This document shows, piece by piece, positions 8,725 through 22,357 of a stretch of 30,479 bases of DNA (position 1 is its first letter; each line of letters opens with the position of its first letter). The translations under genes were made by a program, and so were the position numbers. Under the pieces are notes generated by a model. The model made no database searches. It saw only the letters and a program-made list of their open reading frames with translations, and was not told where the DNA came from. The stretch lies in IMG/VR virus record IMGVR_UViG_3300042516_004266, positions 1-30,479 of that record. One strand, given 5' to 3'. Origin of the DNA: a virus.

Positions 8725-8851
8725 GGCGCGTCACCACGATCTGTTCCTGCCGTTTGAGCGTGTGCGGCTGAGCGCCACTGTTGACACGATGACCGCACTG
8801 GTGACAGCGCTGCGAACGCCGCCAGGCGCTGAAGATCAATACACCCGATAG
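8645..8851 (+). CDS. Small hypothetical helical protein (68 aa)
   Basis: A 68-aa basic, helical protein: MPFRLPANQTEALKDARKIR, then DLLRRFEARHHDLFLPFERV. It has no known domain. It overlaps the preceding gene by 80 bases in another frame and overlaps the 3' end of the terminase gene on the opposite strand by 16 bases (8836-8851). Codon pattern and composition favour this frame over the overlapping one. Confidence 0.55.
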   Translation: MPFRLPANQTEALKDARKIRDLLRRFEARHHDLFLPFERVRLSATVDTMTALVTALRTPPGAEDQYTR

Positions 8852-10227
8852 CCAGAGCGGTGCGTCCGGTTGTTGCCGTTGCAGCTCCCCCAGACCAAGT
8901 ACCTGAGGGCGTCGCCAGCGTGCGAGTAATCCGTGGCCCCGCCTTTCTGCGGATGCCCGGCCTGATCGTAGGCCCAGCGTTCCAGTGAGATCGCCAGGTT
9001 GGGGCAGGCCCGCTCGTTGACCCTGATCAGGCCACGATGGAACAGGGAGTTGACGTGAGAGATGGTCTCGGCCACCGGCGGATTCTTCCTCTCGGCATGA
9101 ACCGTCAGCCCGGCTTCCCGCAGAATCTGGTGATCGCTCTTGGTGCTTGAGGTGCTAGCCGCGCCGCCGGATGCGTCCGGGTAGCAGGTCACAACCCTGC
9201 GCTGAGTCTGCGCCGGGAACTTCTGCTGCAAGTGCCGGGCCACCTCAAACGTGTCCTTGAGCTTGTACTCCCCGAAGATGTGCAAGACCTGCCGGCCGCC
9301 CTCTTGACGGAACACGCCGAAGCAGCCGTGCGAGTTGCCGATGTTGAAGTCAAGCCCCACGTAGACCGCTTCCCCGTGCTCAGCAGCCGTGAGCGTGGTG
9401 GTATGAATCCGGCGGTCATAGCTGCTGAAGATGTTGCTCTGAGCGAGGTTGACGAACTCCCCATTCAGGTAGGCCTCAATCAGCTCGGGCGGGTACTGCT
9501 CACGGAGGCTTTGGACGTAGGTCTCAGGCAGGTGCGGGTTGTCAGTTGTCTTGGCCCGGATCAGCCGCTTCGACGGATCCTCGCTCTCGACGAAGAAACC
9601 GTGCATCCAACCGAAGCCTTCCGGCGTGCAGGCCACAGCGATCTGCGGCTTGATGCCGGTTCGGATGCGACCCTGCAGCAGTCGGAACGAGTTGACAGCG
9701 GCCTGGGGCTTCACGGTGTCGATCTCGTCTACCAGGGCCCAGCTGGCATTGATCCCCCGGATGCGTGCCACGTTCTCAAAGGACCGCAGGAGGCAGCGTG
9801 AGGTGCTGCCGTCAGCGTTGCGCACCTCAAACTCAGAGGCGCCCTTGTGGTAGGTGTAGTCCACCCCCCAGGAGTCCCAGAGGTCAATGGTCTGGGGGAC
9901 CAGAATGTCCGACAACATGCCGAAGGTGGGCTCCATGGCGATGCCCACGTAGCCGGGATTGTCTTCTGCCAGCTGCAGCATCTTGGCGCTGAGGGCGAAG
10001 CTCTTGCCGGCTCCGAACCCCGCCACCAAGCCCAGGTGCCGGGTGGCGGAATCTTCAAGGAAGGCCCGCTGGTGAGGCAGCAGCGACTCCAGGCGCCGGG
10101 CTTGGCGCACCTGATTGCGAGCGACCACGAAGGCCTCGTCCCCGTAGCCACGAACCAGTGACTGAAGGGTGACGCCACGGTAGAGATCGGACAGGACGCT
10201 GGTTTTGAGAGGGGTGGGCTTTCTCAT
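8836..10227 (-). CDS. terL: Phage terminase large subunit
   Basis: A 463-aa protein with the two-domain plan of large terminases, the motor-nuclease that cuts and pumps DNA into proheads. The ATPase domain shows Walker A GFGAGKS (70-76), Walker B ALVDEID (164-170) and the ACTPEG coupling motif (199-204). The RNase H-like nuclease domain shows GLDFN (291-295, Asp293), CYPDASG (348-354, Asp351) and YSHAGDALRY (434-443, Asp439), so all three acidic positions are present. The length is normal. The ATG at 10227 has only a distant GAGG upstream and no GCTAG box, so it may depend on transcription from further upstream. Its probable small-subunit partner lies upstream at 11057-11770, separated by an HNH gene on the other strand. 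Confidence 0.95.
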   Translation of the reverse strand: MRKPTPLKTSVLSDLYRGVTLQSLVRGYGDEAFVVARNQVRQARRLESLLPHQRAFLEDSATRHLGLVAGFGAGKSFALSAKMLQLAEDNPGYVGIAMEPTFGMLSDILVPQTIDLWDSWGVDYTYHKGASEFEVRNADGSTSRCLLRSFENVARIRGINASWALVDEIDTVKPQAAVNSFRLLQGRIRTGIKPQIAVACTPEGFGWMHGFFVESEDPSKRLIRAKTTDNPHLPETYVQSLREQYPPELIEAYLNGEFVNLAQSNIFSSYDRRIHTTTLTAAEHGEAVYVGLDFNIGNSHGCFGVFRQEGGRQVLHIFGEYKLKDTFEVARHLQQKFPAQTQRRVVTCYPDASGGAASTSSTKSDHQILREAGLTVHAERKNPPVAETISHVNSLFHRGLIRVNERACPNLAISLERWAYDQAGHPQKGGATDYSHAGDALRYLVWGSCNGNNRTHRSGYRVY

Positions 10228-10505: not shown

Positions 10506-11060
10506 ATGCAATCAAGCGTAGAACGCTGGCTGCCAATCTTTGGATGGGAGGGCCTGTACGAGGTGAGCAGCCAGGGAAGAGTCCGCAGCCTTGACCGAGT
10601 TGTGGCCTACAAAAATGGGGCGGCGCGGGCCTGGCCTTCTCGGATTCTCAAGCCGTCTCAAAGAGGCGGATACCTCAGAGTTCAGCTGAGCCGACCTGGC
10701 AACCTAGTGGACCGCTCAGTTCACGACCTAGTTGCGGGGGCTTTCCTTGGCCCCCGGCCTGAGGGGCTCATTGTGCTTCATGGAAAAGGAGGCCGCCATG
10801 ACAACAGCGTGGCCAACCTGAGCTACGGCACTCACGCCAAGAACAACGGCGAAGACAGGATTCGTGATGGCACCGATCTGAGAGGTGAGCGCAACCATCG
10901 CTCGACCCTGACCCCTGAAGTGGTGTTGTACGCCCGTGCTGAGAGAGCAAAGGGCCGATCCGTGAGGGCCATCGCCAGGGAGCTAGGCCGCCCTTACAAC
11001 AGCTTGTGGCGAGCGGTAGCCGGGCACAACTGGGGATGGCTCAGTGGTCCGCAGGGTTAG
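10506..11060 (+). CDS. NUMOD4/HNH homing endonuclease-type protein
   Basis: A 184-aa protein. Residues 6-32 (ERWLPIFGWEGLYEVSSQGR and following VRSLDR) are a textbook NUMOD4 DNA-binding motif. The middle (VHDLVAGAFLGPRPEGLIVL then HGKGG, NLSYGTHAKNN) follows the HNH_3 layout, although the usual N-H-x-D-G-D core reads L-H-G-K-G-G here, so catalytic activity is uncertain. The C-terminus (SVRAIARELGRPYNSLWRAV) is a helix-turn-helix. AGAAGG before the ATG is a plausible Shine-Dalgarno sequence, unlike most genes here. It lies between the two terminase genes on the opposite strand, a typical landing place for homing endonucleases. Its stop overlaps that of the small terminase by 4 bases. Confidence 0.85.
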   Translation: MQSSVERWLPIFGWEGLYEVSSQGRVRSLDRVVAYKNGAARAWPSRILKPSQRGGYLRVQLSRPGNLVDRSVHDLVAGAFLGPRPEGLIVLHGKGGRHDNSVANLSYGTHAKNNGEDRIRDGTDLRGERNHRSTLTPEVVLYARAERAKGRSVRAIARELGRPYNSLWRAVAGHNWGWLSGPQG

Positions 11061-11770
11061 ACGGCTTTGCCTGAAGGTGCCGCCGCTACGGGTGGCGGAC
11101 CGGCTTGCGCAAGAAAGGCAGCCGACTCTTCGCTAGCCGAAGCGTCCATTTCCTCCAGGGCGGCAACGAGCTTGCCGACTCCGAGGCTCTCATTCCAGAG
11201 GCCGCTGGCGGTCATGGCCGTGCTGTTGAGCGTGGCCATGAAACGACTGGAGCGGTCGAGATTCCACTCGCTGTCAGGAAGCCGATCGACGGCTTTCGTG
11301 ACCTTGAGCAGGACTTTGGATGCCAGGGAGGCAAGGCCCTTGCTCATCTGGTGCTGAACCCGCTGGTATTCCTCGATTGAGATCCGCATTTCGGCCCGAC
11401 GCTGCTCTGCGTTGAGGCGGGCCTGAGTGGCGAACTCGTGCCGATCCCAGAGTTCGGCCCGGTAGGCCCAACGGTTGAGGCGGTGGTACTCAGAGAGGGT
11501 GGTGGCGTTGGGGGCTTTCTTGACGAGGGGATCTGCGATCAGGATCTCAACTGCGTCTCTGATGGATCGCTGAGGGCCAATGCCGAGGTAGGCCTGAAAG
11601 TACCGATAGGCGAGGGAGCTTTCGTCGAGTTGTTGTTCCCAGGCCTTGATGGCGTTGCCGTGTTCGACTTGAAGACCAGTTGATTTGTCGGATCCCACAG
11701 AACCTGCGGCGCCGCCGCATGAAGAGTGTGGACAGAGACTAGCCACAGCCGGACTTGCGGGTCTCTCCAC
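11057..11770 (-). CDS. terS: Probable terminase small subunit
   Basis: A 237-aa frame. The block AWEQQLDESSLAYRYFQAYL, then GPQRSIRDAVEIL, then YHRLNRWAYRAELWDRHEFA matches the layout of phage small terminases that begin with W-x-(R/Q)-Q-x-x-E-S, a helix-turn-helix, and a W-x-x-R-A-x-x-(W/Y)-D ending. The small subunit binds the packaging site and loads the large subunit. The C-terminal half is helical and ends in an Ala/Pro-rich tail. The start is uncertain: GTG at 11770 overlaps the divergent promoter, and an in-frame GTG at 11698 would give a protein beginning at VGSDKSTG, closer to the family. No ATG fits. Confidence 0.7.
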   Translation of the reverse strand: MERPASPAVASLCPHSSCGGAAGSVGSDKSTGLQVEHGNAIKAWEQQLDESSLAYRYFQAYLGIGPQRSIRDAVEILIADPLVKKAPNATTLSEYHRLNRWAYRAELWDRHEFATQARLNAEQRRAEMRISIEEYQRVQHQMSKGLASLASKVLLKVTKAVDRLPDSEWNLDRSSRFMATLNSTAMTASGLWNESLGVGKLVAALEEMDASASEESAAFLAQAGPPPVAAAPSGKAV

Positions 11771-12162: not shown

Positions 12163-12186
12163 GTGAGGGCACACTTACCACCTGCC

Positions 12187-12765
12187 ATGAAAGTCACCAC
12201 CCCTCGGGTCCGTCCGCAACACGACTACGCCGGCAAACCCTGGCAGCTGCCGGTCTTCAGCTATGGCATCAACACGGCCCTGAAGCAGGTCGCCTACCGC
12301 TGCCCCGAGTGGGACGGGCAATGGGCGCCGGCGTTCCTTGACGGCTACCGGATGCGCTTTGAGAAGGCCTACCCCGGCTCAGGTCACACCTACTGCAACG
12401 TGCGGCCGGAGCCTGGCCAGAGGGTCTTCGGGGCGCTGCTCTGGCTTGACGGAGACAGCTTCCGCTCGCTTGACCAGTTTGAGGGCTTCCCTGTCCACTA
12501 CCAGCGCAAGCGGGTCACTGTCCACGTGGAAGGGCTGGGCTTTGAGGCGGCCTGGGTTTACCACTCCGACCACCTGGACGCCGAGCTGCCGCCCACCGTG
12601 GACTATTACACCGGCGTCCTGAAGGGCCTGATCGACATCGGGGCCCCTGGCCACTATGTGGAGGAAGTGATTCGGGACACGGCGCACCGATGGCTGCACC
12701 CGACTGGGGAAGCATTCTCGCCAAGGCGGGGATCCCGGAATCGCCCGGTCGCGCTGAGGCGGTGA
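12187..12765 (+). CDS. Gamma-glutamylcyclotransferase-like (AIG2/GGCT) protein
   Basis: A 192-aa protein with the GGCT fold signatures: LPVFSYG (21-27, the substrate loop near the N-terminus), GYRMRF (53-58), V-F-G-A-L-L-W (80-86) and LDQFEGFPVHYQR (95-107) with the catalytic-type Glu99. This family opens gamma-glutamyl amides to release 5-oxoproline. ATG at 12187 is preferred; GTG at 12163 would run through the leader. It lies upstream of an amidoligase, a pairing described for bacterial and phage neighbourhoods, which suggests that the two act on the same gamma-glutamyl-type bond. The last 25 residues overlap the next small gene and look unconstrained (Arg/Pro-rich). Confidence 0.85.
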   Translation: MKVTTPRVRPQHDYAGKPWQLPVFSYGINTALKQVAYRCPEWDGQWAPAFLDGYRMRFEKAYPGSGHTYCNVRPEPGQRVFGALLWLDGDSFRSLDQFEGFPVHYQRKRVTVHVEGLGFEAAWVYHSDHLDAELPPTVDYYTGVLKGLIDIGAPGHYVEEVIRDTAHRWLHPTGEAFSPRRGSRNRPVALRR

Positions 12766-12955: not shown

Positions 12956-13993
12956 ATGGCCCGCACCTTCGGCGTTGAGCTTGAGATTGTCCACGGCGAG
13001 CAGCCTGTTGGCTTCATCGGCCGCGTGACCCGTGCCCTTCGGGACGCTGGCCTGGCCCGCCAGACCATTGATCAGCAGCACTACGGGGCCAACGACTACG
13101 GCACCTGGCAGATCAACCGGGATTCCTCTGTTCACCGCAACGGCTTCGCCGGCGGCGAGGTGGTGAGCCGCATCCTTCCCGCCACCGAGGCTGGCTTCAC
13201 CGAGCTTGCCCAGGCCTGCGACCTGATTGCCGGCGCCGGCGCCACGGTCAACCGGACCTGCGGGATGCACGTTCACGTTGACGTGCGCGACCTGAGCGTT
13301 GACGAGATCCGCAACGTGGTGATCGCTTACATGCGCTTCCAGGGCGAGATCGACACCGTGGTTCCCCGCAGCCGCCGGGGCAGCAACCAATACTGCCGCC
13401 ACCTCTCGTCTTCCTACGTGAGCCTTGACGACATGATCACGAGCCTTGAGTGGGCCCAGTCGGTCAGCAGCTTGGACTACAGGATGGGCGGCAAATACCG
13501 GGTTCTGAACCTGAGCAAGTTCGCCTACACCGGCACCATTGAGTTCCGCCAGCACAGCGGCACCGTGGAGGCCGCCAAGGCGGTGGCATGGGCCCGTTGG
13601 TGCGTGGCCTTCGTCGAGACCTTCCGCCACGCTGCTGCGCCGGTGGCCGCCGTGCCTTGCGAGGGCGAGGTGCTTGAGCGCTATCAGGGCCGGGGCGAAA
13701 TGCGCCTTCCCAGCCGTGGCCCTTCCCTGGCCATCATTCGCCGCCTGCAAGCCGGCCCCGCTCGCTGGGAAGAGCTGGCAGCGCTGACCCCGCAGGATGA
13801 CAACGCCGACGCCACCGTTTGGCTCAAGTGGTGCGCCAGCCGCTACGGGGTGAGCGTGGTTCGCACTGCCGCCGGTTGGCAGCTCGACAACGGCCAGGCC
13901 GCTGCAGTCGCCGCTTCACCCTTTGAGGCCTGCTTCACCCCCGGTGGCCAGATCAGCTACTTCGGCAGCCGCCGCCGCGCCCTCAGCCGCTGA
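12956..13993 (+). CDS. Putative amidoligase enzyme (Amidoligase_2 family)
   Basis: A 345-aa protein with the conserved marks of the glutamine-synthetase-like amidoligase family: FGVELE (5-10), INRDSS (53-58), GGEVVSRIL (66-74), CGMHVHVDV (102-110), YRVLNLSKF (181-189) and TIEFRQHSGT (194-203). The Glu, His and Arg residues of these motifs bind Mg-ATP and carry out amide-bond ligation in the family. The substrate here is unknown; proposed roles for relatives include peptide tagging and cell-wall or small-metabolite modification. The first 250 residues are the enzyme, and the rest is a winged-helix-like tail (LPSRGPSLAIIRRLQAGPAR). It lies after a GGCT-like gene, as in described amidoligase clusters. 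The ATG is immediately after the CTTACCACC tract. Confidence 0.88.
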   Translation: MARTFGVELEIVHGEQPVGFIGRVTRALRDAGLARQTIDQQHYGANDYGTWQINRDSSVHRNGFAGGEVVSRILPATEAGFTELAQACDLIAGAGATVNRTCGMHVHVDVRDLSVDEIRNVVIAYMRFQGEIDTVVPRSRRGSNQYCRHLSSSYVSLDDMITSLEWAQSVSSLDYRMGGKYRVLNLSKFAYTGTIEFRQHSGTVEAAKAVAWARWCVAFVETFRHAAAPVAAVPCEGEVLERYQGRGEMRLPSRGPSLAIIRRLQAGPARWEELAALTPQDDNADATVWLKWCASRYGVSVVRTAAGWQLDNGQAAAVAASPFEACFTPGGQISYFGSRRRALSR

Positions 13994-16112: not shown

Positions 16113-16136
16113 GCCCCGCTCAGGCGGGGCTTTTTT
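16113..16136 (+). terminator. Rho-independent terminator
   Basis: GCCCCGC (16113-16119), loop TCAG, GCGGGGC (16124-16130), then TTTTTT. It ends the plus-strand block. The sequence also encodes the last residues (EKSPA) and the stop codon of the convergent ParB-like gene, whose stop is in the loop. Confidence 0.9.
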
Positions 16137-16776
16137 CTTGCTCAGCGTCTCGCCACTCCTGGCGGATCTTGATCATGCTCTTGGTCTCCCAGGCCCTCTT
16201 GTACTCAGCGTTTTCAAACAGCTTGCTGAACCCCGTGACGTGCTTGAGCCTGATCACTTCCTCCGGCTCCATCCCTAGCTCCCGGCAAATCTGGGCCTCG
16301 GGCCAGCCGTTGTCCAACATGCTGAACACCATTGACGCCATGCCGTCCATGCTGTGCTTGCCACGGGCCCGGTTGTGACGCACCGTGCTGGCCATCCGAT
16401 CGTTGATGTCCTTGTTGATCACCACGATCGGCAGGCGCCCATGGTTGCGCTCCAGGATGTCAGGATTGCTCTTGCAAGTGAAATACCTGTGAAAGCCATC
16501 CACAATCACAAAGAGATCGCGCTCTTCGTCGTAGATCGTGACCGTAGGCTGAGTGTAACCATCGTGCAGGATTGAGGTGTAGAGCAGACCCATCTCGATC
16601 TTGGCGACAGAGTTTGGGTTGTAGTCGTTGGGCGTGACCTTTTCAATCGGCACCCACCGCACCCGGTCTACCGGCTGGGACTTCAGCGGCGACAGTTCAT
16701 GCAGCAGGTCGCGGATCTCTTCGATGAACTGAACCTTGTCAGTGGCGGCTTCAAAGGCCTTGCGAAGTGGCTCCAT
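16120..16776 (-). CDS. IbrB-like ParB-family protein
   Basis: A 218-aa protein of the ParB/Srx superfamily. It has WVPIEKVTPNDYNPN (41-55), a T-S-I-L-H-D-G-Y-T-Q-P segment (67-77), IVDGFHRY (91-98, the nucleotide-binding box) and TVRHNRARGKH (131-141), then an HTH region (WPEAQICRELGMEPEEVIRL). This set is typical of IbrB, known in E. coli as the partner of IbrA in control of immunoglobulin-binding gene expression. An IbrA-like gene is in the same operon. ParB-fold proteins can act as CTPases or nucleases; which applies here is unknown. Last gene of the operon; its ATG shares one base with the preceding stop (TGATG). Confidence 0.82.
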   Translation of the reverse strand: MEPLRKAFEAATDKVQFIEEIRDLLHELSPLKSQPVDRVRWVPIEKVTPNDYNPNSVAKIEMGLLYTSILHDGYTQPTVTIYDEERDLFVIVDGFHRYFTCKSNPDILERNHGRLPIVVINKDINDRMASTVRHNRARGKHSMDGMASMVFSMLDNGWPEAQICRELGMEPEEVIRLKHVTGFSKLFENAEYKRAWETKSMIKIRQEWRDAEQEKSPA

Positions 16777-17378
16777 CAGTGATCCTCAAAGTGACGGTGG
16801 AAGGTCTTGCTGATCCGCCCATGGTTGCGGATCTTCTGAACGCTGGACGGGCCGACCACGTGGTCAACCAGATTGGGAACCACAATCCAGTGCTTCTCTT
16901 TGCGTGATTTCAGCCAGTAGTCCACCAAGTCGTCAAGCTCAACCATCCCATCAGGCTCCTGGCCTTTCTGCTCCAGATAGGTGGGCACGTAGTCAATGAT
17001 CTGCTGGGGATACCCAGGCGGCAGGTAGGTGCAAAGCGCTCCCCCGTATCGGCCATCCCAGCGGCTGCCGATGGTCAGGTCTTCTTTCCGCCGGCTGAAA
17101 CCGTTGATCACTCGGTCAGGGCGGGCGGCTATCTCGGCAGCCAGCTTGGCCTCAAAGTCTGGACAGAGAATGATGTCGTCTTCAAGGTGGATGCTTGGCC
17201 CGTCACCGCTCAGCTCCAGGGCCCGCAGGAAGTTGTCGGTGGCGCGAAGCCATGGCGCTCGATTCGGATCTTGCTTGCACCACAGCACCGTGACGCCTGG
17301 CAGCGCTTTGGTGATCCGAGCAACGTGAACTGCCCGGCGAGGGACAGCCCGCAAGAACATGGGGGGCAGGGTGCTCAT
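16776..17378 (-). CDS. Glycosyltransferase-like protein (GT25-like layout)
   Basis: A 200-aa protein. PSIHLEDDIILCPDFEAKLA (61-80) contains the EDD metal/sugar-nucleotide motif of GT-A glycosyltransferases. The end (PNLVDHVVGPSSVQKIRNHG, then FHRHFED) resembles the P-S-L-V-Q-H-x-G-x-S-S block of GT25-like enzymes. It presumably transfers a sugar, with acceptor unknown. The ATG at 17378 overlaps the preceding gene as ATGA; the frame is open upstream to 17480 only as a shadow. No signal peptide or membrane segment, so it should act in the cytoplasm. Confidence 0.72.
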   Translation of the reverse strand: MSTLPPMFLRAVPRRAVHVARITKALPGVTVLWCKQDPNRAPWLRATDNFLRALELSGDGPSIHLEDDIILCPDFEAKLAAEIAARPDRVINGFSRRKEDLTIGSRWDGRYGGALCTYLPPGYPQQIIDYVPTYLEQKGQEPDGMVELDDLVDYWLKSRKEKHWIVVPNLVDHVVGPSSVQKIRNHGRISKTFHRHFEDH

Positions 17379-18151
17379 TTGCCGAACCTCTGAACACGGG
17401 CTTGCCGGTGAGCCTCTCTGGCCTTGGGCGTCAGGTCTGAATCCATGGGAATCAGCAGATCCATCCCTGTGCCGGTGCATCGCTTCCCCCTTCGGTAGGT
17501 CACGTAGTCATCCATCAGGGTCTGAGGCGGGTTGCTTGCCATGAAGGTGTTCATGCCGCCACGAGTGCAGACGTGATGAACGGCCAGGCTGCCGAGGTAG
17601 CGATAGTTCGTGAAGCCGTTCACGTAGGCCGTCAGCGGCCACACGGTGTCAAAGGTGAGCGGGATAGAAGGCAGCGCTCGCATCAGGTCGGCCACCTCGT
17701 CGGTGTAAGCCATGCCGCCACCCTGATAGACCAGCGCTTGCTTCACAAAAACGTCTTTCATCTTGGGGACTTTCGCATCCATGAGCTTGCGGGTCCGGGC
17801 CCAGTTGGTGAGCACGAATCCCGTGGAGGGCTCTGCGGCCTTGGCGAGGGCCCGAGCGTAAAAGGTGTGCTCAGTCAACTCCATGTCGTCATCAAGGTTG
17901 ATGTAGGCCTCATACCTGATGCGATTCAGCAGTTCGACCCGCGCCCCGTGACACCCCAGGCGATCCGGGTAAACGAAAAGGTTGGTGATGCGGTCTCGCC
18001 GCCGGATCAACGGCACGCCTTCGGCGACACCCTGATAGAGAATGTTGATGTCAATGGCGTCGAAACGAGGCTGGGTCACGATGCTGTCAAGCAGCTTGTT
18101 CAAATCCGCCACCCGTTCGGAGACGGTGATGATCACGAAAGTGGTCTTCAC
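17375..18151 (-). CDS. GT-A glycosyltransferase
   Basis: A 258-aa protein starting at GTG (VKTTFVIITVSERVADLNKL), a typical GT2-like N-terminus for UDP-sugar binding. YINLDDDMELTEHTF (83-97) holds the D-x-D metal motif. The C-terminal half includes LVYQGGGMAYTDEVADLM and YVNGFTNYRYLGSLAVHHVC. The GTG overlaps the stop of the IbrA-like gene (GTGA), so the genes are coupled. The acceptor may be DNA, a nucleotide, protein or surface glycan. The lack of any membrane anchor and the company of IbrA/ParB-type genes favour an intracellular target, but this is inference. Confidence 0.78.
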   Translation of the reverse strand: MKTTFVIITVSERVADLNKLLDSIVTQPRFDAIDINILYQGVAEGVPLIRRRDRITNLFVYPDRLGCHGARVELLNRIRYEAYINLDDDMELTEHTFYARALAKAAEPSTGFVLTNWARTRKLMDAKVPKMKDVFVKQALVYQGGGMAYTDEVADLMRALPSIPLTFDTVWPLTAYVNGFTNYRYLGSLAVHHVCTRGGMNTFMASNPPQTLMDDYVTYRRGKRCTGTGMDLLIPMDSDLTPKAREAHRQARVQRFGK

Positions 18152-19308
18152 GCTGCGGCCTCCATGCTCATCTTGACGAATGGGTTGTCCTTGTGGTTTC
18201 GGCGGTCTCTGCCTTTGCTCCAGGCGTACCAACCCTGCACGAAGGGGCCCGCCTCCCAGTTGCGGCAGAGGGTGAAGCACTGATCGTTGACCAGCGCTGT
18301 GCGGGCCTGCACCCGATACATCTTGTCCTTGTCGGGGAACGCCGCGTACTTGCGCTCCATCTTGGCGAAGTGCTTGTCCATGGTCTTGCGATCATCCTCG
18401 CCAGGGACCATGTACTTGATCAAGTGATCGCGGTACTCACGCCATGAGTCGAACATAGGCGGCAGCTTTTTCGGGCACTGGAAAGCCTCTTTGCACAGGT
18501 GCTTAATGGTGTTGGCGCCGGGGATGCGATCGACCACCTTCTCCCAGGTCTCCCGGTCAATCTCCTGCAAGTGAATCAGGGACTGCAGCGCTGTTTCGTG
18601 ATGCAGCGACGACAGCCGCATGTCGCGGAGCGGTGTTCCCAAGGCGTACATCTCGTCATACAGCCGGCAGTAGGCCCACCTGTTGCGATGAATGGCAACC
18701 CAGATGTCGGTGAGGGACCAGTCGTAGAGCGGCGAGAAGTTGTAGTGGTCGAGGGCTTTGTCGAAGATCAGGCCCCAGGTGATGTCCCGGTAGGTGCGAA
18801 TCCCGGTGAGGCCAAGGTTGCGGCGGGGGGATTCCTCGGCGCGGATCCCGGTGAGCAGGCAGGCTTTCTGGGTTGGGAAGCGCTGTTTGAAGATCGCCGG
18901 GAACATGTCGTACCAGTCGCTGGTGCCGATGTCGGCTTCATGAATGGCGCCCGGCTCCTTGTCTCGCATCCACTTCACGCCCTCTCCCCAGCAGACGAAA
19001 TTGCTGTCGCCGCTGGCGTTGTTGGCAATGGAGATGGGGATCTGATACCAGAGCAGCTCAACGTCGGGCATGTCACGGATTTCCCGGATGTAGTCGATCG
19101 TGAATCGCCACTCGGCCTCCTGATCAGCGAAGAGCACCTGCAGGGGAAGGCGGCCCTTCTCACGAGCGACCTGGAGGGCCAGCTGCATCACCACGGTCGA
19201 ATCCTTGCCGCCGGACATGGCGACAAGGACGTGGGGGAACTCGTCGTAAAGACGCCGGATCCTGTCAAGGGCGGCGTCGAAGACGTTCTGCTGCAGGTAG
19301 AGCCTCAT
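18148..19308 (-). CDS. IbrA-like PAPS reductase-family protein (DUF3440 type)
   Basis: A 386-aa protein. The PP-loop VAMSGGKDSTVVMQLAL (29-45) marks the N-type ATP pyrophosphatase fold shared by PAPS reductase, DndC and tRNA-thiolation enzymes. It continues QVLFADQEAEWRFTIDYI, then LLTGIRAEESPRRN, and a long C-terminal region with Cys in QCPKK and CFTLC. The length and C-terminal extension fit IbrA/DUF3440 rather than the 240-aa assimilatory enzyme. A sulfur or adenylation reaction is likely from the fold; the substrate is unknown. It overlaps the 128-aa gene by ATGA and the glycosyltransferase by GTGA. Confidence 0.88.
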   Translation of the reverse strand: MRLYLQQNVFDAALDRIRRLYDEFPHVLVAMSGGKDSTVVMQLALQVAREKGRLPLQVLFADQEAEWRFTIDYIREIRDMPDVELLWYQIPISIANNASGDSNFVCWGEGVKWMRDKEPGAIHEADIGTSDWYDMFPAIFKQRFPTQKACLLTGIRAEESPRRNLGLTGIRTYRDITWGLIFDKALDHYNFSPLYDWSLTDIWVAIHRNRWAYCRLYDEMYALGTPLRDMRLSSLHHETALQSLIHLQEIDRETWEKVVDRIPGANTIKHLCKEAFQCPKKLPPMFDSWREYRDHLIKYMVPGEDDRKTMDKHFAKMERKYAAFPDKDKMYRVQARTALVNDQCFTLCRNWEAGPFVQGWYAWSKGRDRRNHKDNPFVKMSMEAAA

Positions 19309-19691
19309 AGGAGGGTGAACTGTGTTGGAGGTGTCGGGGGGACGGGCTTGCAGGTGCTCAGGGACAGCTCCTGGCGGTTGATCAAGTCACACTTGCTCCA
19401 GTGGGGATCCATCTGCCAATACCGCCAGCCGTTGACGGTGGCGTACATGCGGACTTCTTTCTTGCGGCCCCACATCATCGGCTGGCCTTTTTCCTCGATG
19501 AAGCGGGCGCAGTCTTTGAGGGTGATCGGCGGGAGGTAGCAGCCGTCTTCCCACTCTTCAGAGCCTGACTGCCAGGCCCTGCGGTGGACGTAATAGTGAG
19601 GGCAGTATTTGGCGTAGTTGACCGCGAAAGTCCAGGGCTGGCTCTCCATGGTCTGAGCAAACTGCTCCTCAGTGATGAAGCGTGATGGCAT
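19305..19691 (-). CDS. Hypothetical protein, first gene of IbrA-glycosyltransferase operon (128 aa)
   Basis: A 128-aa protein starting MPSRFITEEQFAQTMESQPW. It contains many Trp/Tyr and spaced Cys/His (AKYCPHYYVHRRAW, GCYLPPITLKDCARF, SKCDLINRQEL), which may bind metal. The layout, including FAVNYAKYCPHYY, suggests a compact alpha/beta protein. I cannot name the family, though small proteins of this kind occur next to IbrA-like genes in phages as far as I recall. It has a GCTAG promoter upstream and overlaps the next gene by ATGA. Confidence 0.7.
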   Translation of the reverse strand: MPSRFITEEQFAQTMESQPWTFAVNYAKYCPHYYVHRRAWQSGSEEWEDGCYLPPITLKDCARFIEEKGQPMMWGRKKEVRMYATVNGWRYWQMDPHWSKCDLINRQELSLSTCKPVPPTPPTQFTLL

Positions 19692-19715
19692 GGGTGGCTG
19701 GTGGCGACCTCGTGC

Positions 19716-19744
19716 ATCATACCACCGGGCTAGCTAAATGCTGG
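19716..19744 (-). promoter_or_regulatory. GCTAG-family promoter of IbrA-glycosyltransferase operon
   Basis: On the minus strand, TAGCTAGCCCGGTGG precedes TATGAT (19721-19716). The -35 region (CCAGCA) is weak. The leader is short and unstructured (GCCACCAGCCACCC before the ATG). The stop of the upstream ParB-like gene (19734-19736) lies in the box. Confidence 0.7.
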
Positions 19745-20342
19745 CCTTGTCGATCCCGAAGGTGTTGCTGCAGTGAGGGCAGGTCACGTCCACGATGCTT
19801 TGGTCTCCGGCGGTGTCGAAGCCTTGGGTCATGCGCTGCTGCGCGGCTGCAACGTCGGCGTCGGTGGTCAGCGTGGCGCCTTGCGTGGGCTGCAGGGTCG
19901 GCTCAAAGGCGGGCGGCTGGATTGCGCCGCCGAGAAGCTCCAGCTCGGCGTCACTGAAGAAATCCAGCACCTGATCGGCTTCCTCTGCGAACAGCTTCAG
20001 GCCGCTGGTGTCCCACTGGAGGTTGATCTCAGCGGTGCGATTGTCCGCCAGGGCAAGCATCCGGGCCTTGGGGTCGCCGGCGTCCAGGTCGGTGCGCTTG
20101 TGAACGATGATCTCGTCACCGCTGGTCTCAATCACCCGAACCTTGGTCAGGCCGATCTCTCCGGCCTTCTGGAAGGCGTGGTTGCCGGCGATGATCGTGC
20201 CGTCAGCGGCGGCCACGATCGGCCGGGCAAAGCCGTATTCGCGCAGGCTGCGCTCCAGGGCGTAGTTGCCCCGCTCGGTGCCTTGGTTCAGGTTGTCCTG
20301 ATCCGGGGTGAAATCGGTCAGGGAGGCTTTCTGGTCCGCCAA
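19734..20342 (-). CDS. ParB/Srx-domain protein, second copy
   Basis: A 202-aa protein with a clear ParB N-terminal domain: DNLNQGTERGNYALERSLRE (16-35), YGFARPIVAAADGTIIAGNH (36-55), VHKRTDLDAGD (80-90) and LALADNRTAE (96-105). The GTERG and IIAGN boxes bind nucleotide in ParB-like proteins. The C-terminus carries DVTCPHCSNTFGID with one Cys pair, like half of a zinc ribbon that could complete by dimerising. This type is common in phages, often near packaging or modification genes. The start is TTG at 20342 because no ATG fits before GTERG; that is uncertain. It differs greatly from the IbrB-like ParB at 16120. Confidence 0.8.
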   Translation of the reverse strand: MADQKASLTDFTPDQDNLNQGTERGNYALERSLREYGFARPIVAAADGTIIAGNHAFQKAGEIGLTKVRVIETSGDEIIVHKRTDLDAGDPKARMLALADNRTAEINLQWDTSGLKLFAEEADQVLDFFSDAELELLGGAIQPPAFEPTLQPTQGATLTTDADVAAAQQRMTQGFDTAGDQSIVDVTCPHCSNTFGIDKASI

Positions 20343-20894: not shown

Positions 20895-20930
20895 ATCATA
20901 CCACCTCTAGCTGGAAATGGCTAGAGGTGG
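20895..20930 (-). promoter_or_regulatory. GCTAG-family promoter with perfect 11-bp dyad
   Basis: On the minus strand, CCACCTCTAGC (20930-20920), 8-base centre, GCTAGAGGTGG (20911-20901), then TATGAT (20900-20895). It has the same arms and spacing as the plus-strand site at 1768, with a different centre, so the arms are under selection or recently copied. Confidence 0.8.
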
Positions 20931-21567: not shown

Positions 21568-21729
21568 ATGCCTACGTCAACGGCAGAAGAACATCGCCAC
21601 CGCCACTACATCAGAAAAGCCCTGGCTGAAAACGGGGCTGACCCGTTTGAGATTGCGGCTGAGGCCATCGCACGGGCTGAAAGGCTGGAGGCCCGGATAC
21701 GGGCCTTGGAGGCGCAGCTGGGTCGCTAG
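21568..21729 (+). CDS. Small coiled-coil protein (53 aa) with own operator
   Basis: A 53-aa protein: MPTSTAEEHRHRHYIRKALA, then a helical repeat-like tail (EAIARAERLEARIRALEAQL) that should form a coiled coil and perhaps a dimer. GGAGG seven bases before the ATG is a strong Shine-Dalgarno sequence, which nearly all genes here lack. With the palindrome 35 bases upstream, it looks like an independently controlled, possibly autoregulated gene; there is no obvious DNA-binding motif. Its TAG stop shares one CTAG palindrome with the stop of the convergent HNH gene. Confidence 0.65.
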   Translation: MPTSTAEEHRHRHYIRKALAENGADPFEIAAEAIARAERLEARIRALEAQLGR

Positions 21730-22337
21730 CTGGCTGTGGCTAGCCCAAGAGCTTTTTCTATCGGCCACCCTCGCTTTAGGCGCTTTGCCAGTGTCGCCCA
21801 GGTGATTCCAGCCTCATCCGCCCAGTCAGCGATGCACTGCCGTCGCCCTTGGTACTCCAACAAAACATTGCTGCGCCTGTTGCGGGACTGCTGCTCTCGG
21901 GTGGCCCAGCGGACGTTCCCAGGTTGGTAATGGCCGTCGTTGTCAATCCGGTCGATCTGGTGAACCGGGGATGGGCGCGGTCCCACGTCTTGGAGAAAAC
22001 TCTCAAACGAGTCGTACAAAACACGGATGCCGCGACCGCCCCAATCCTTGAAACTTTTGTTGCGCTCAGAATTACATCGCTCTTGCATGTTTGACCAGAC
22101 TTTGTACTCAGGGCTTTGTGACATGCGGTGAGTGGCGTTTCGCTTGGCAGTAGCCTCACGGTTTTTGCAGCCACATGAGCGACTGAGCCCCCGCTTGACG
22201 TTGGCCACAAGGATTTCTTTTCTTACGCCGCAGTCGCACTCGCAGAGCCAGTAAGTCTGGCCGTTTCTGTTTTCTGCACGGCTGAGCAAAGTTAAACAGC
22301 CGTATTTTTGACCTGTCAGGTCGGCAAGCTTAGGCAT
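21726..22337 (-). CDS. HNH-like endonuclease-type phage protein, copy 2
   Basis: A 203-aa paralog of the 241-855 gene: DLTGQKYGCL (6-15), YWLCECDCG (29-37), SCGC (54-57), WGGRGI (99-104), QIDRIDNDGHYQPGNVRWAT (127-146), then EQQSRNRRSN. It keeps the consensus IDRIDNDG and RWAT that copy 1 has lost in part (VDRINNDG, WWAP). AGGAAGTGAC before the ATG is a plausible Shine-Dalgarno sequence. Its composition is less GC-rich than its neighbours, as expected for a mobile gene. An in-frame TTG lies just before the chosen ATG. Both copies end in ATAS followed by TAG, because each ends in a GCTAG box. Confidence 0.82.
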   Translation of the reverse strand: MPKLADLTGQKYGCLTLLSRAENRNGQTYWLCECDCGVRKEILVANVKRGLSRSCGCKNREATAKRNATHRMSQSPEYKVWSNMQERCNSERNKSFKDWGGRGIRVLYDSFESFLQDVGPRPSPVHQIDRIDNDGHYQPGNVRWATREQQSRNRRSNVLLEYQGRRQCIADWADEAGITWATLAKRLKRGWPIEKALGLATAS

Positions 22338-22357
22338 CAAGTCACTTCCTGCTAGAA

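Follow-up and report, generated by a model that had tools for sequence, protein, structure and literature searches.

In T-even phages, glycosyltransferases (GTs) add sugar to a hydroxymethylcytosine handle that has been installed on the DNA beforehand. Here we describe an operon in a 30,479-base stretch of viral DNA (IMG/VR virus record IMGVR_UViG_3300042516_004266; G+C = 62.8%; the whole stretch is hereafter called the window), in which five open reading frames (ORFs) on the minus strand (19691-16120) encode, in order, a 128-residue protein (p128), an IbrA-like PP-loop ATPase, a GT2-family GT, a GT25-like GT and an IbrB-like ParB protein. Judging from its genes and their relatives, we consider it probable that this operon is a phage DNA-hypermodification cassette, whereby IbrA, IbrB and p128 would install a handle and the two GTs would sugar it. 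The T-even GT families differ from GT2 and GT25, however, and no nucleotide hydroxymethylase was recognised at this locus.

Other described systems share different attributes with the operon. The DpdA/QueCDE-FolE cassette of Rosebushvirus, responsible for dPreQ0, is likewise phage-encoded, is located directly before the large terminase gene (terL) in sister phages, and has a homologous ParB protein (ParB2) at its head. Its DpdA is a base-exchange transglycosylase, whereas the IbrA-type cassette has instead a PP-loop protein and a second ParB (IbrB), accompanied by swappable tailoring enzymes. The CmoA/CmoX/CmoY system follows a similar handle-then-hypermodify logic: CmoY, a phage ATP-dependent AMP-forming ligase homologous to asparagine synthetase, joins a small amine, glycine, onto the 5-carboxymethylcytosine of DNA, and proteins with ParB domains are often encoded nearby (PMC12783734). 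IbrA, in contrast, is PAPS-reductase/CysD-like, Cmo forms an amide only whereas GTs are present here, and neither CmoA nor CmoX has a recognised homologue in the window. The PP-loop ATPase superfamily is also represented in DndCDE-DndB, SspBCD and BREX type 4, and Dnd possesses a ParB-superfamily partner in DndB; the phosphorothioation systems differ from the window cassette, whose family includes tailoring GTs, methyltransferases and GNATs. Finally, adjacent pairs of the same two protein families are found in prophages and phages, the E. coli name being immunoglobulin-binding regulators (IbrA/IbrB). Our literature search found no paper giving IbrA/IbrB a role in DNA modification. The survey of DNA-base modification systems by Iyer et al. 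(2013, NAR) is said to have predicted several phage systems of the PP-loop and modified-AdoMet kinds; it may cover IbrA-like systems, and parts of the present proposal may have been foreseen there.

Organization of the operon

The cassette as defined here consists of the five ORFs, which overlap by 4, 4, 4 and 1 bases in order just as the sequence-only reading of this DNA had described, together with the ParB2 gene 42 bases upstream, which we have added:

19305-19691, minus strand: p128, 128 residues; conserved domain, function unassigned
18148-19308, minus strand: IbrA-like PP-loop ATPase with partial DUF3440, 386 residues; SGGKDS at residues 32-37; PF01507, phrog_2302
17375-18151, minus strand: GT2-family glycosyltransferase, 258 residues, GTG start at 18151; invariant DDD at residues 87-89
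16776-17378, minus strand: GT25-like glycosyltransferase, 200 residues, ATG start at 17378; EDD motif, D68 invariant
16120-16776, minus strand: IbrB-like ParB/Srx-fold protein, 218 residues; phrog_2159; DGFHR at residues 93-97, RHNRARG at residues 133-139
19734-20342, minus strand: ParB2, second ParB-like protein; phrog_620, phrog_498; constant upstream companion of the cassette

Longer GT2 and GT25 ORFs opened further upstream are unlikely, as their overlap with neighbouring genes would exceed 100 bases.

A conserved core with exchangeable cargo

Relatives were gathered as an IbrB-anchored set of 80 viral contigs and in a separate p128-anchored scan of 44 loci; searching viral contigs with nothing but the window IbrA yielded no relatives. 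Dereplication (IbrA less than 85% identical) and removal by tree of 7 Gaia-type outgroup loci left 66 loci, and core and outgroup loci together make up a 73-locus set with a mean of 21 genes per locus. Wherever the sequence allows, the IbrB-anchored loci share one type of neighbourhood, ordered ParB2 - p128 - cargo - IbrA - IbrB - small terminase-side gene - terL. Dozens of unrelated phage contigs repeat this gene order. In essentially all p128-anchored loci with enough sequence, IbrA lies downstream, and the loci with room have IbrA and IbrB next to p128. The core of ParB2, p128, IbrA and IbrB adjoins terminase genes in the 66 dereplicated relatives, where the small terminase gene usually stands directly downstream of IbrB; in the window it lies approximately 4.3 kb away:

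11057-11770, minus strand: terminase small subunit (phrog_6299, 6.4e-14)
8836-10227, minus strand: terminase large subunit (phrog_2, 5.1e-39; PF03237, 4e-15)

At least one tailoring enzyme is present in 64 of the 66 loci. p128 itself was found in 57, GT25 in 35, an N6/N4-type methyltransferase in 28, a GNAT in 25, a class I S-adenosylmethionine (SAM) methyltransferase in 14, an AdoMet decarboxylase (AdoMetDC) in 10, GT2 in 7, and an oxygenase-like gene, so named solely from its HxD...H pattern and from Pfam hits that fall short of threshold, in 6. Pfam support for this cargo includes PF01555 (N6_N4_Mtase; 2.8e-6), PF00583 (3.5e-10), PF02675 (1.1e-12), TylF (7.7e-10) and Methyltransf_25 (1.8e-10). 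All genes in the loci were searched, and in the 73-locus set every one of the 40 GT25, 7 GT2, 33 N6/N4-type methyltransferase and 10 AdoMet decarboxylase genes fell within -5 to +4 genes of IbrA, location counts that carry some bias from profiles seeded on operon members. Tailoring enzymes are also physically joined to the core, as in a single 644-residue ORF (L044:2854-4788) in which a window-type GT2 (residues 5-253) is fused to IbrA (residues 259-623), and further fusions link p128 to a SAM methyltransferase, AdoMetDC to p128, p128 to a GNAT, and GT25 to an N6/N4 methyltransferase. The sequence-only reading had suggested a joint reaction of IbrA/IbrB and the GTs, and had named GTs never linked to the pair, together with unmodified virion DNA, as what would count against its proposal; a GT lies in the cassette in 41 of the 66 loci, which with the GT2-IbrA fusion disposes of the objection from linkage and supports the idea of a joint reaction. 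Taken as a whole, the neighbourhood comparisons support the view that the arrangement is not due to chance and that these genes form one functional module.

Cargo turns over quickly. On the IbrA tree the GT25 label requires at least 11-13 changes, close to the figure for shuffled labels, and of the window's nearest kin (L121, L039 and L013; set of four supported 96/94) L121 and L039 differ in the presence or absence of a GT25 between IbrA and IbrB. The combination of cargo is nonetheless non-random: the oxygenase-like gene occurs only alongside GT25 (6/6, p = 0.026) and AdoMet decarboxylase rarely does so (1/10, p = 0.004), both p values being uncorrected and drawn from related sequences. AdoMet decarboxylase is fused to or beside p128 in three loci (L048:3181-3840, L055:5826-6470 and L063:6399-7043) and free in L083 and L127, and the cassette also holds a methyltransferase-like gene, a combination suggestive of aminopropyl transfer.

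The Gaia-type IbrA/IbrB pair stands apart from the window cassette, which belongs to a separate, well-supported IbrA clade carrying tailoring cargo. Unlike that clade, none of the 80 Gaia-type loci (L147-L226) contains p128, a GT, an N6/N4 methyltransferase or an AdoMet decarboxylase, and the usual partner is an ectoine-synthase-like protein, which accompanies IbrA/IbrB in 55 of the 80 and is fused to IbrB in 26; that of Gaia itself matches PF06339 at 1.3e-32 (L006:6606-7505). Gaia-type phages also encode a protein of about 130 residues, function unassigned.

The terminase-side slot and DNA as the likely target

Bclasvirinae mycobacteriophages and a relative give a view of what occupies the position before terL. 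In Akoma the genes preceding a homologous terL are ParB2-x-x-IbrA-IbrB, in Coffee ParB2-DpdA-QueC-QueD-QueE-FolE, in Stinger and Bane1 ParB2-DpdA, and in the Bclasvirinae relative Gordonia Evaa ParB2 and a ParB-methyltransferase fusion, while ABU has a single small terminase-side gene and no cassette. Every genus with a cassette has a homologous ParB at the head of the slot, the ParB2 proteins of the other slot phages being approximately 47-58% identical to that of Akoma. In Rosebush, the type of the genus that includes Coffee, dPreQ0 is present at ~28% of the G, and the dPreQ0 cassette protects DNA from restriction (PMC6884629). Distant relatives of the window cassette therefore sit in the very position that, in sister phages, a proven DNA-modification cassette holds, and the shared slot and retained ParB2 argue that IbrA/IbrB replaces that module. 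DNA is thus likely to be the target of the cassette, and is the best-supported one. The CmoY precedent, the likeness of ParB2 and IbrB to ParB domains joined to DNA methyltransferases, and the frequency of N6_N4_Mtase cargo point the same way. The sequence-only reading had guessed at a sulfur- or sugar-bearing group on DNA, a nucleotide or a protein: the DNA option gains independent support from the shared Bclasvirinae slot, and a sulfur product is unlikely on the grounds given below, leaving that interpretation partly supported overall.

Predicted activities of the cassette proteins

IbrA matches PAPS_reduct (PF01507) at 1.5e-16 and phrog_2302 at 7.9e-76. Its DUF3440 score of 23.0 bits lies below the Pfam cut-off of 25, compared to 32.1 bits for the Hendrix homologue, and its place in the IbrA family follows from the PAPS_reduct PP-loop domain with SGGKDS and the IbrB-type ParB in the same operon. 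SGGKDS is conserved in 99% of IbrA relatives. No cysteine is conserved among them (the best Cys column reaches 62%), and the CysH motif CG(L/I/V)H was found in 0 of 203 IbrA sequences, which makes adenylation with subsequent attack by an amine or hydroxyl likelier than thiolation. IbrA looks like an adenylating ligase by these features, and sulfur transfer by IbrA was rejected on cysteine conservation.

IbrB matches phrog_2159 (ParB) at 3.3e-72, and its near-invariant DGFHR and RHNRARG motifs lie where the ParB/Srx fold has its nucleotide site. ParB2 matches phrog_620 at 2.7e-18 and phrog_498 at 2e-17, and both proteins resemble the ParB domain that is fused to DNA methyltransferases (phrog_498). 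Because these ParB proteins travel with modification enzymes, a partition function was rejected for them.

The window GT2 scores below the cut-off against PF00535 (0.0058), but its family profile matches solved GT2 enzymes, among them the glucosyltransferase 9jma at 2.7e-4, and the protein has the N-terminal nucleotide-binding half with a DxD motif, the DDD being invariant in the family. The GT25-like protein matches phrog_854 (glucosyltransferase) at 1.4e-4. Its AlphaFold model (pLDDT 87.3) has a GT-A fold with an EDD-type metal motif, and the nearest structures found by Foldseek are of the GT25 family (mimivirus R655, 7e-7, and the human collagen galactosyltransferase COLGALT1, 1e-6). A two-sequence GT25 alignment used as query matched Hendrix only.

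Neither Pfam, PHROGs nor PADLOC has a family that matches p128. The conserved residues of this protein are A23, P31-H32, Y91-W92-x-M94 and N105-R106; the Cys-rich character ascribed to it in the sequence-only reading is not a conserved property, since no Cys column reaches 25% in the family. The AlphaFold model (pLDDT 89.8) found no match in the PDB, the single match of the fold search being an uncharacterised viral protein. p128 shares homology with the N-terminal part of the Hendrix ‘methyltransferase’ and with proteins of ~90 residues in dozens of phages, and in relatives it is fused to a SAM methyltransferase, an AdoMet decarboxylase or a GNAT. Neither the window p128, the window GT2 nor a canonical p128 had a match among isolate phages, so the linkage rests mainly on metagenomic contigs and Microbacterium phages. 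As a separate observation, orphan chromosomal p128-methyltransferase fusions of approximately 305 residues, lacking IbrA/IbrB, are present in genome bins of Gamma- and Alphaproteobacteria (L137, L138, L140, L141, L142 and similar).

Proposed mechanism and alternative explanations

Under the hypermodification reading, IbrA would spend ATP during replication or shortly afterwards on adenylating a base of the DNA, or a group already bound to one, and would join a small nucleophile to it, a ligase chemistry with no transfer of sulfur. IbrB and ParB2, with their ParB/sulfiredoxin-type nucleotide-binding fold, may present the DNA or license the reaction, and p128 may be an adaptor that couples the tailoring enzymes. 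GT2 and GT25 would then add one or two sugars to the handle, rendering the virion DNA sugar-decorated and resistant to host restriction, and exchange of the outer tailoring genes would alter the decoration while leaving the core unchanged. A bolder version, which we offer tentatively and hold to be possible though doubtful, is that IbrA, IbrB and p128 make up a new core for DNA modification. It would attach to the base, by ligation, a handle resembling an amine or amino acid, which phages would decorate combinatorially with sugar, methyl, acetyl or aminopropyl groups. The window would then make a two-step glycosylated base, and cassettes with oxygenase-like cargo and GT25 a hydroxylated-then-glycosylated side chain resembling collagen hydroxylysine.

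Several points weigh against this proposal. The case for DNA is one of gene context, not of chemistry, and no other annotated gene of the window points to modified nucleotides. The IbrA/IbrB of the slot phages are divergent, being only ~30-34% identical to those of the window, and these phages carry neither p128 nor GTs. The Gaia-type pairs, with a cupin and no GT, indicate that the core chemistry need not involve sugars, and the bacterial chromosomal p128-methyltransferase fusions without complete IbrA indicate that p128 can act outside the pathway.

The set of GT, TylF-like O-methyltransferase and acetyltransferase would also suit a pathway that builds glycans on virion or host proteins, in which case the proximity to IbrA/IbrB would reflect a terminase-side cargo hot spot with no shared reaction; the structural relatives of GT25 are protein glycosyltransferases such as COLGALT1. 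We regard this as improbable, given the GT2-IbrA and AdoMetDC-p128 fusions, the location of cargo within rather than alongside the core operon, and the presence of N6/N4-type methyltransferase and AdoMet decarboxylase, which would be unusual for protein glycans. Slightly less probable still is a target other than DNA, namely transfer RNA (tRNA), the nucleotide pool or a small molecule (e.g. a compound derived from a nucleoside triphosphate). PP-loop ATPases, AdoMet decarboxylase, cupin/ectoine-synthase-like domains and GNATs are all common in such pathways, with which the bacterial p128 orphans also agree, but the slot and ParB2 are common to a proven DNA-base modification cassette, and the terminase-side position suits a late step directed at DNA.

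That IbrA acts like DndC, SspD or BrxP in a sulfur-based modification of DNA (phosphorothioate or thio-base) is suggested by its PADLOC matches, which all cover the PP-loop region (BrxP 1.3e-8, DndC 8e-7, SspD 1e-3), and by the membership of DndB, like IbrB, in the ParB superfamily (PMC10853773). Set against this, the IbrA family lacks the conserved cysteines of the DndC type as well as the CG(L/I/V)H motif, and no DndD/DndE, SspB/SspC or cysteine desulfurase was recognised beside the cassette (the Dnd and Ssp partners had no PADLOC match among the scanned cassette proteins and were missing from the conserved neighbour clusters), making this explanation very unlikely. As the PADLOC matches are to generic PP-loop and methyltransferase models only, membership of a defence system was rejected. 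We give equally little credence to the standard annotation, which makes IbrA an auxiliary PAPS reductase serving sulfur metabolism and assigns IbrB to partition, to nuclease activity or, in line with the IbrA/IbrB name, to the co-activation of prophage genes. Database names favour it, and phage PAPS reductases have been published as auxiliary metabolic genes (PMC5463345), but the catalytic cysteine motif of CysH is missing, IbrA is near-constantly paired with IbrB and tailoring enzymes, and ectoine-synthase-like domains are fused to IbrB in Gaia-type loci.

Other features of the window

The window also encodes terminase, DnaB, HNH and Gp88 genes. A promoter-like element occupies the gap between ParB2 and p128:

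19714..19735, minus strand: promoter-like element AGCTAGCCCGGTGGTATGATGC, 22 bases ahead of the start codon that opens the operon

AGCTAGCCCGGTGGTATGATGC is a variant of a repeat dispersed through the window genome. The 18-bp form of this element, GGCTAGAGGTGGTATGAT, occurs in 12 copies versus 0.02 expected, on the plus strand at 1786, 2775, 3035, 5492, 5945, 6903, 7197, 14280 and 15528 and on the minus strand at 20895, 21460 and 26229. Copies often have CTAGCCA, an inverted half, ahead of them and often stand before start codons, and the repeat looks like a phage-specific promoter/operator.

A gamma-glutamyl cyclotransferase-like gene (12163-12765, plus strand) adjoins an Amidoligase_2 gene (12956-13993, plus strand; PF12224, 6.7e-32), possibly forming a pair that modifies peptides or the cell wall. 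Four HNH endonuclease-like genes, several possibly of the homing type, lie within 30 kb (148-855, 1854-2780, 10506-11060 and 21726-22340), and a Gp88 family protein (PF17338, 3.6e-40) is encoded at the contig end (29358-30155, minus strand).

Implications

Versions of the cassette are carried by culturable phages, namely Microbacterium Hendrix, Rasputia and Leaf and the mycobacteriophage Akoma, with ABU as a cassette-free relative. Should the hypermodification reading prove true, a PP-loop/ParB route to hypermodified DNA would be added, the recurrence of GTs, methyltransferases, acetyltransferases and AdoMet decarboxylase beside phage terminase genes would be explained, and the cassettes would be a source of new DNA-modifying enzymes. 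Hundreds of phage genes annotated as ‘PAPS reductase’ or ‘ParB partition’, which are now often counted as auxiliary genes of sulfur metabolism, would then belong to a widespread system that decorates DNA and whose outer chemistry is interchangeable.

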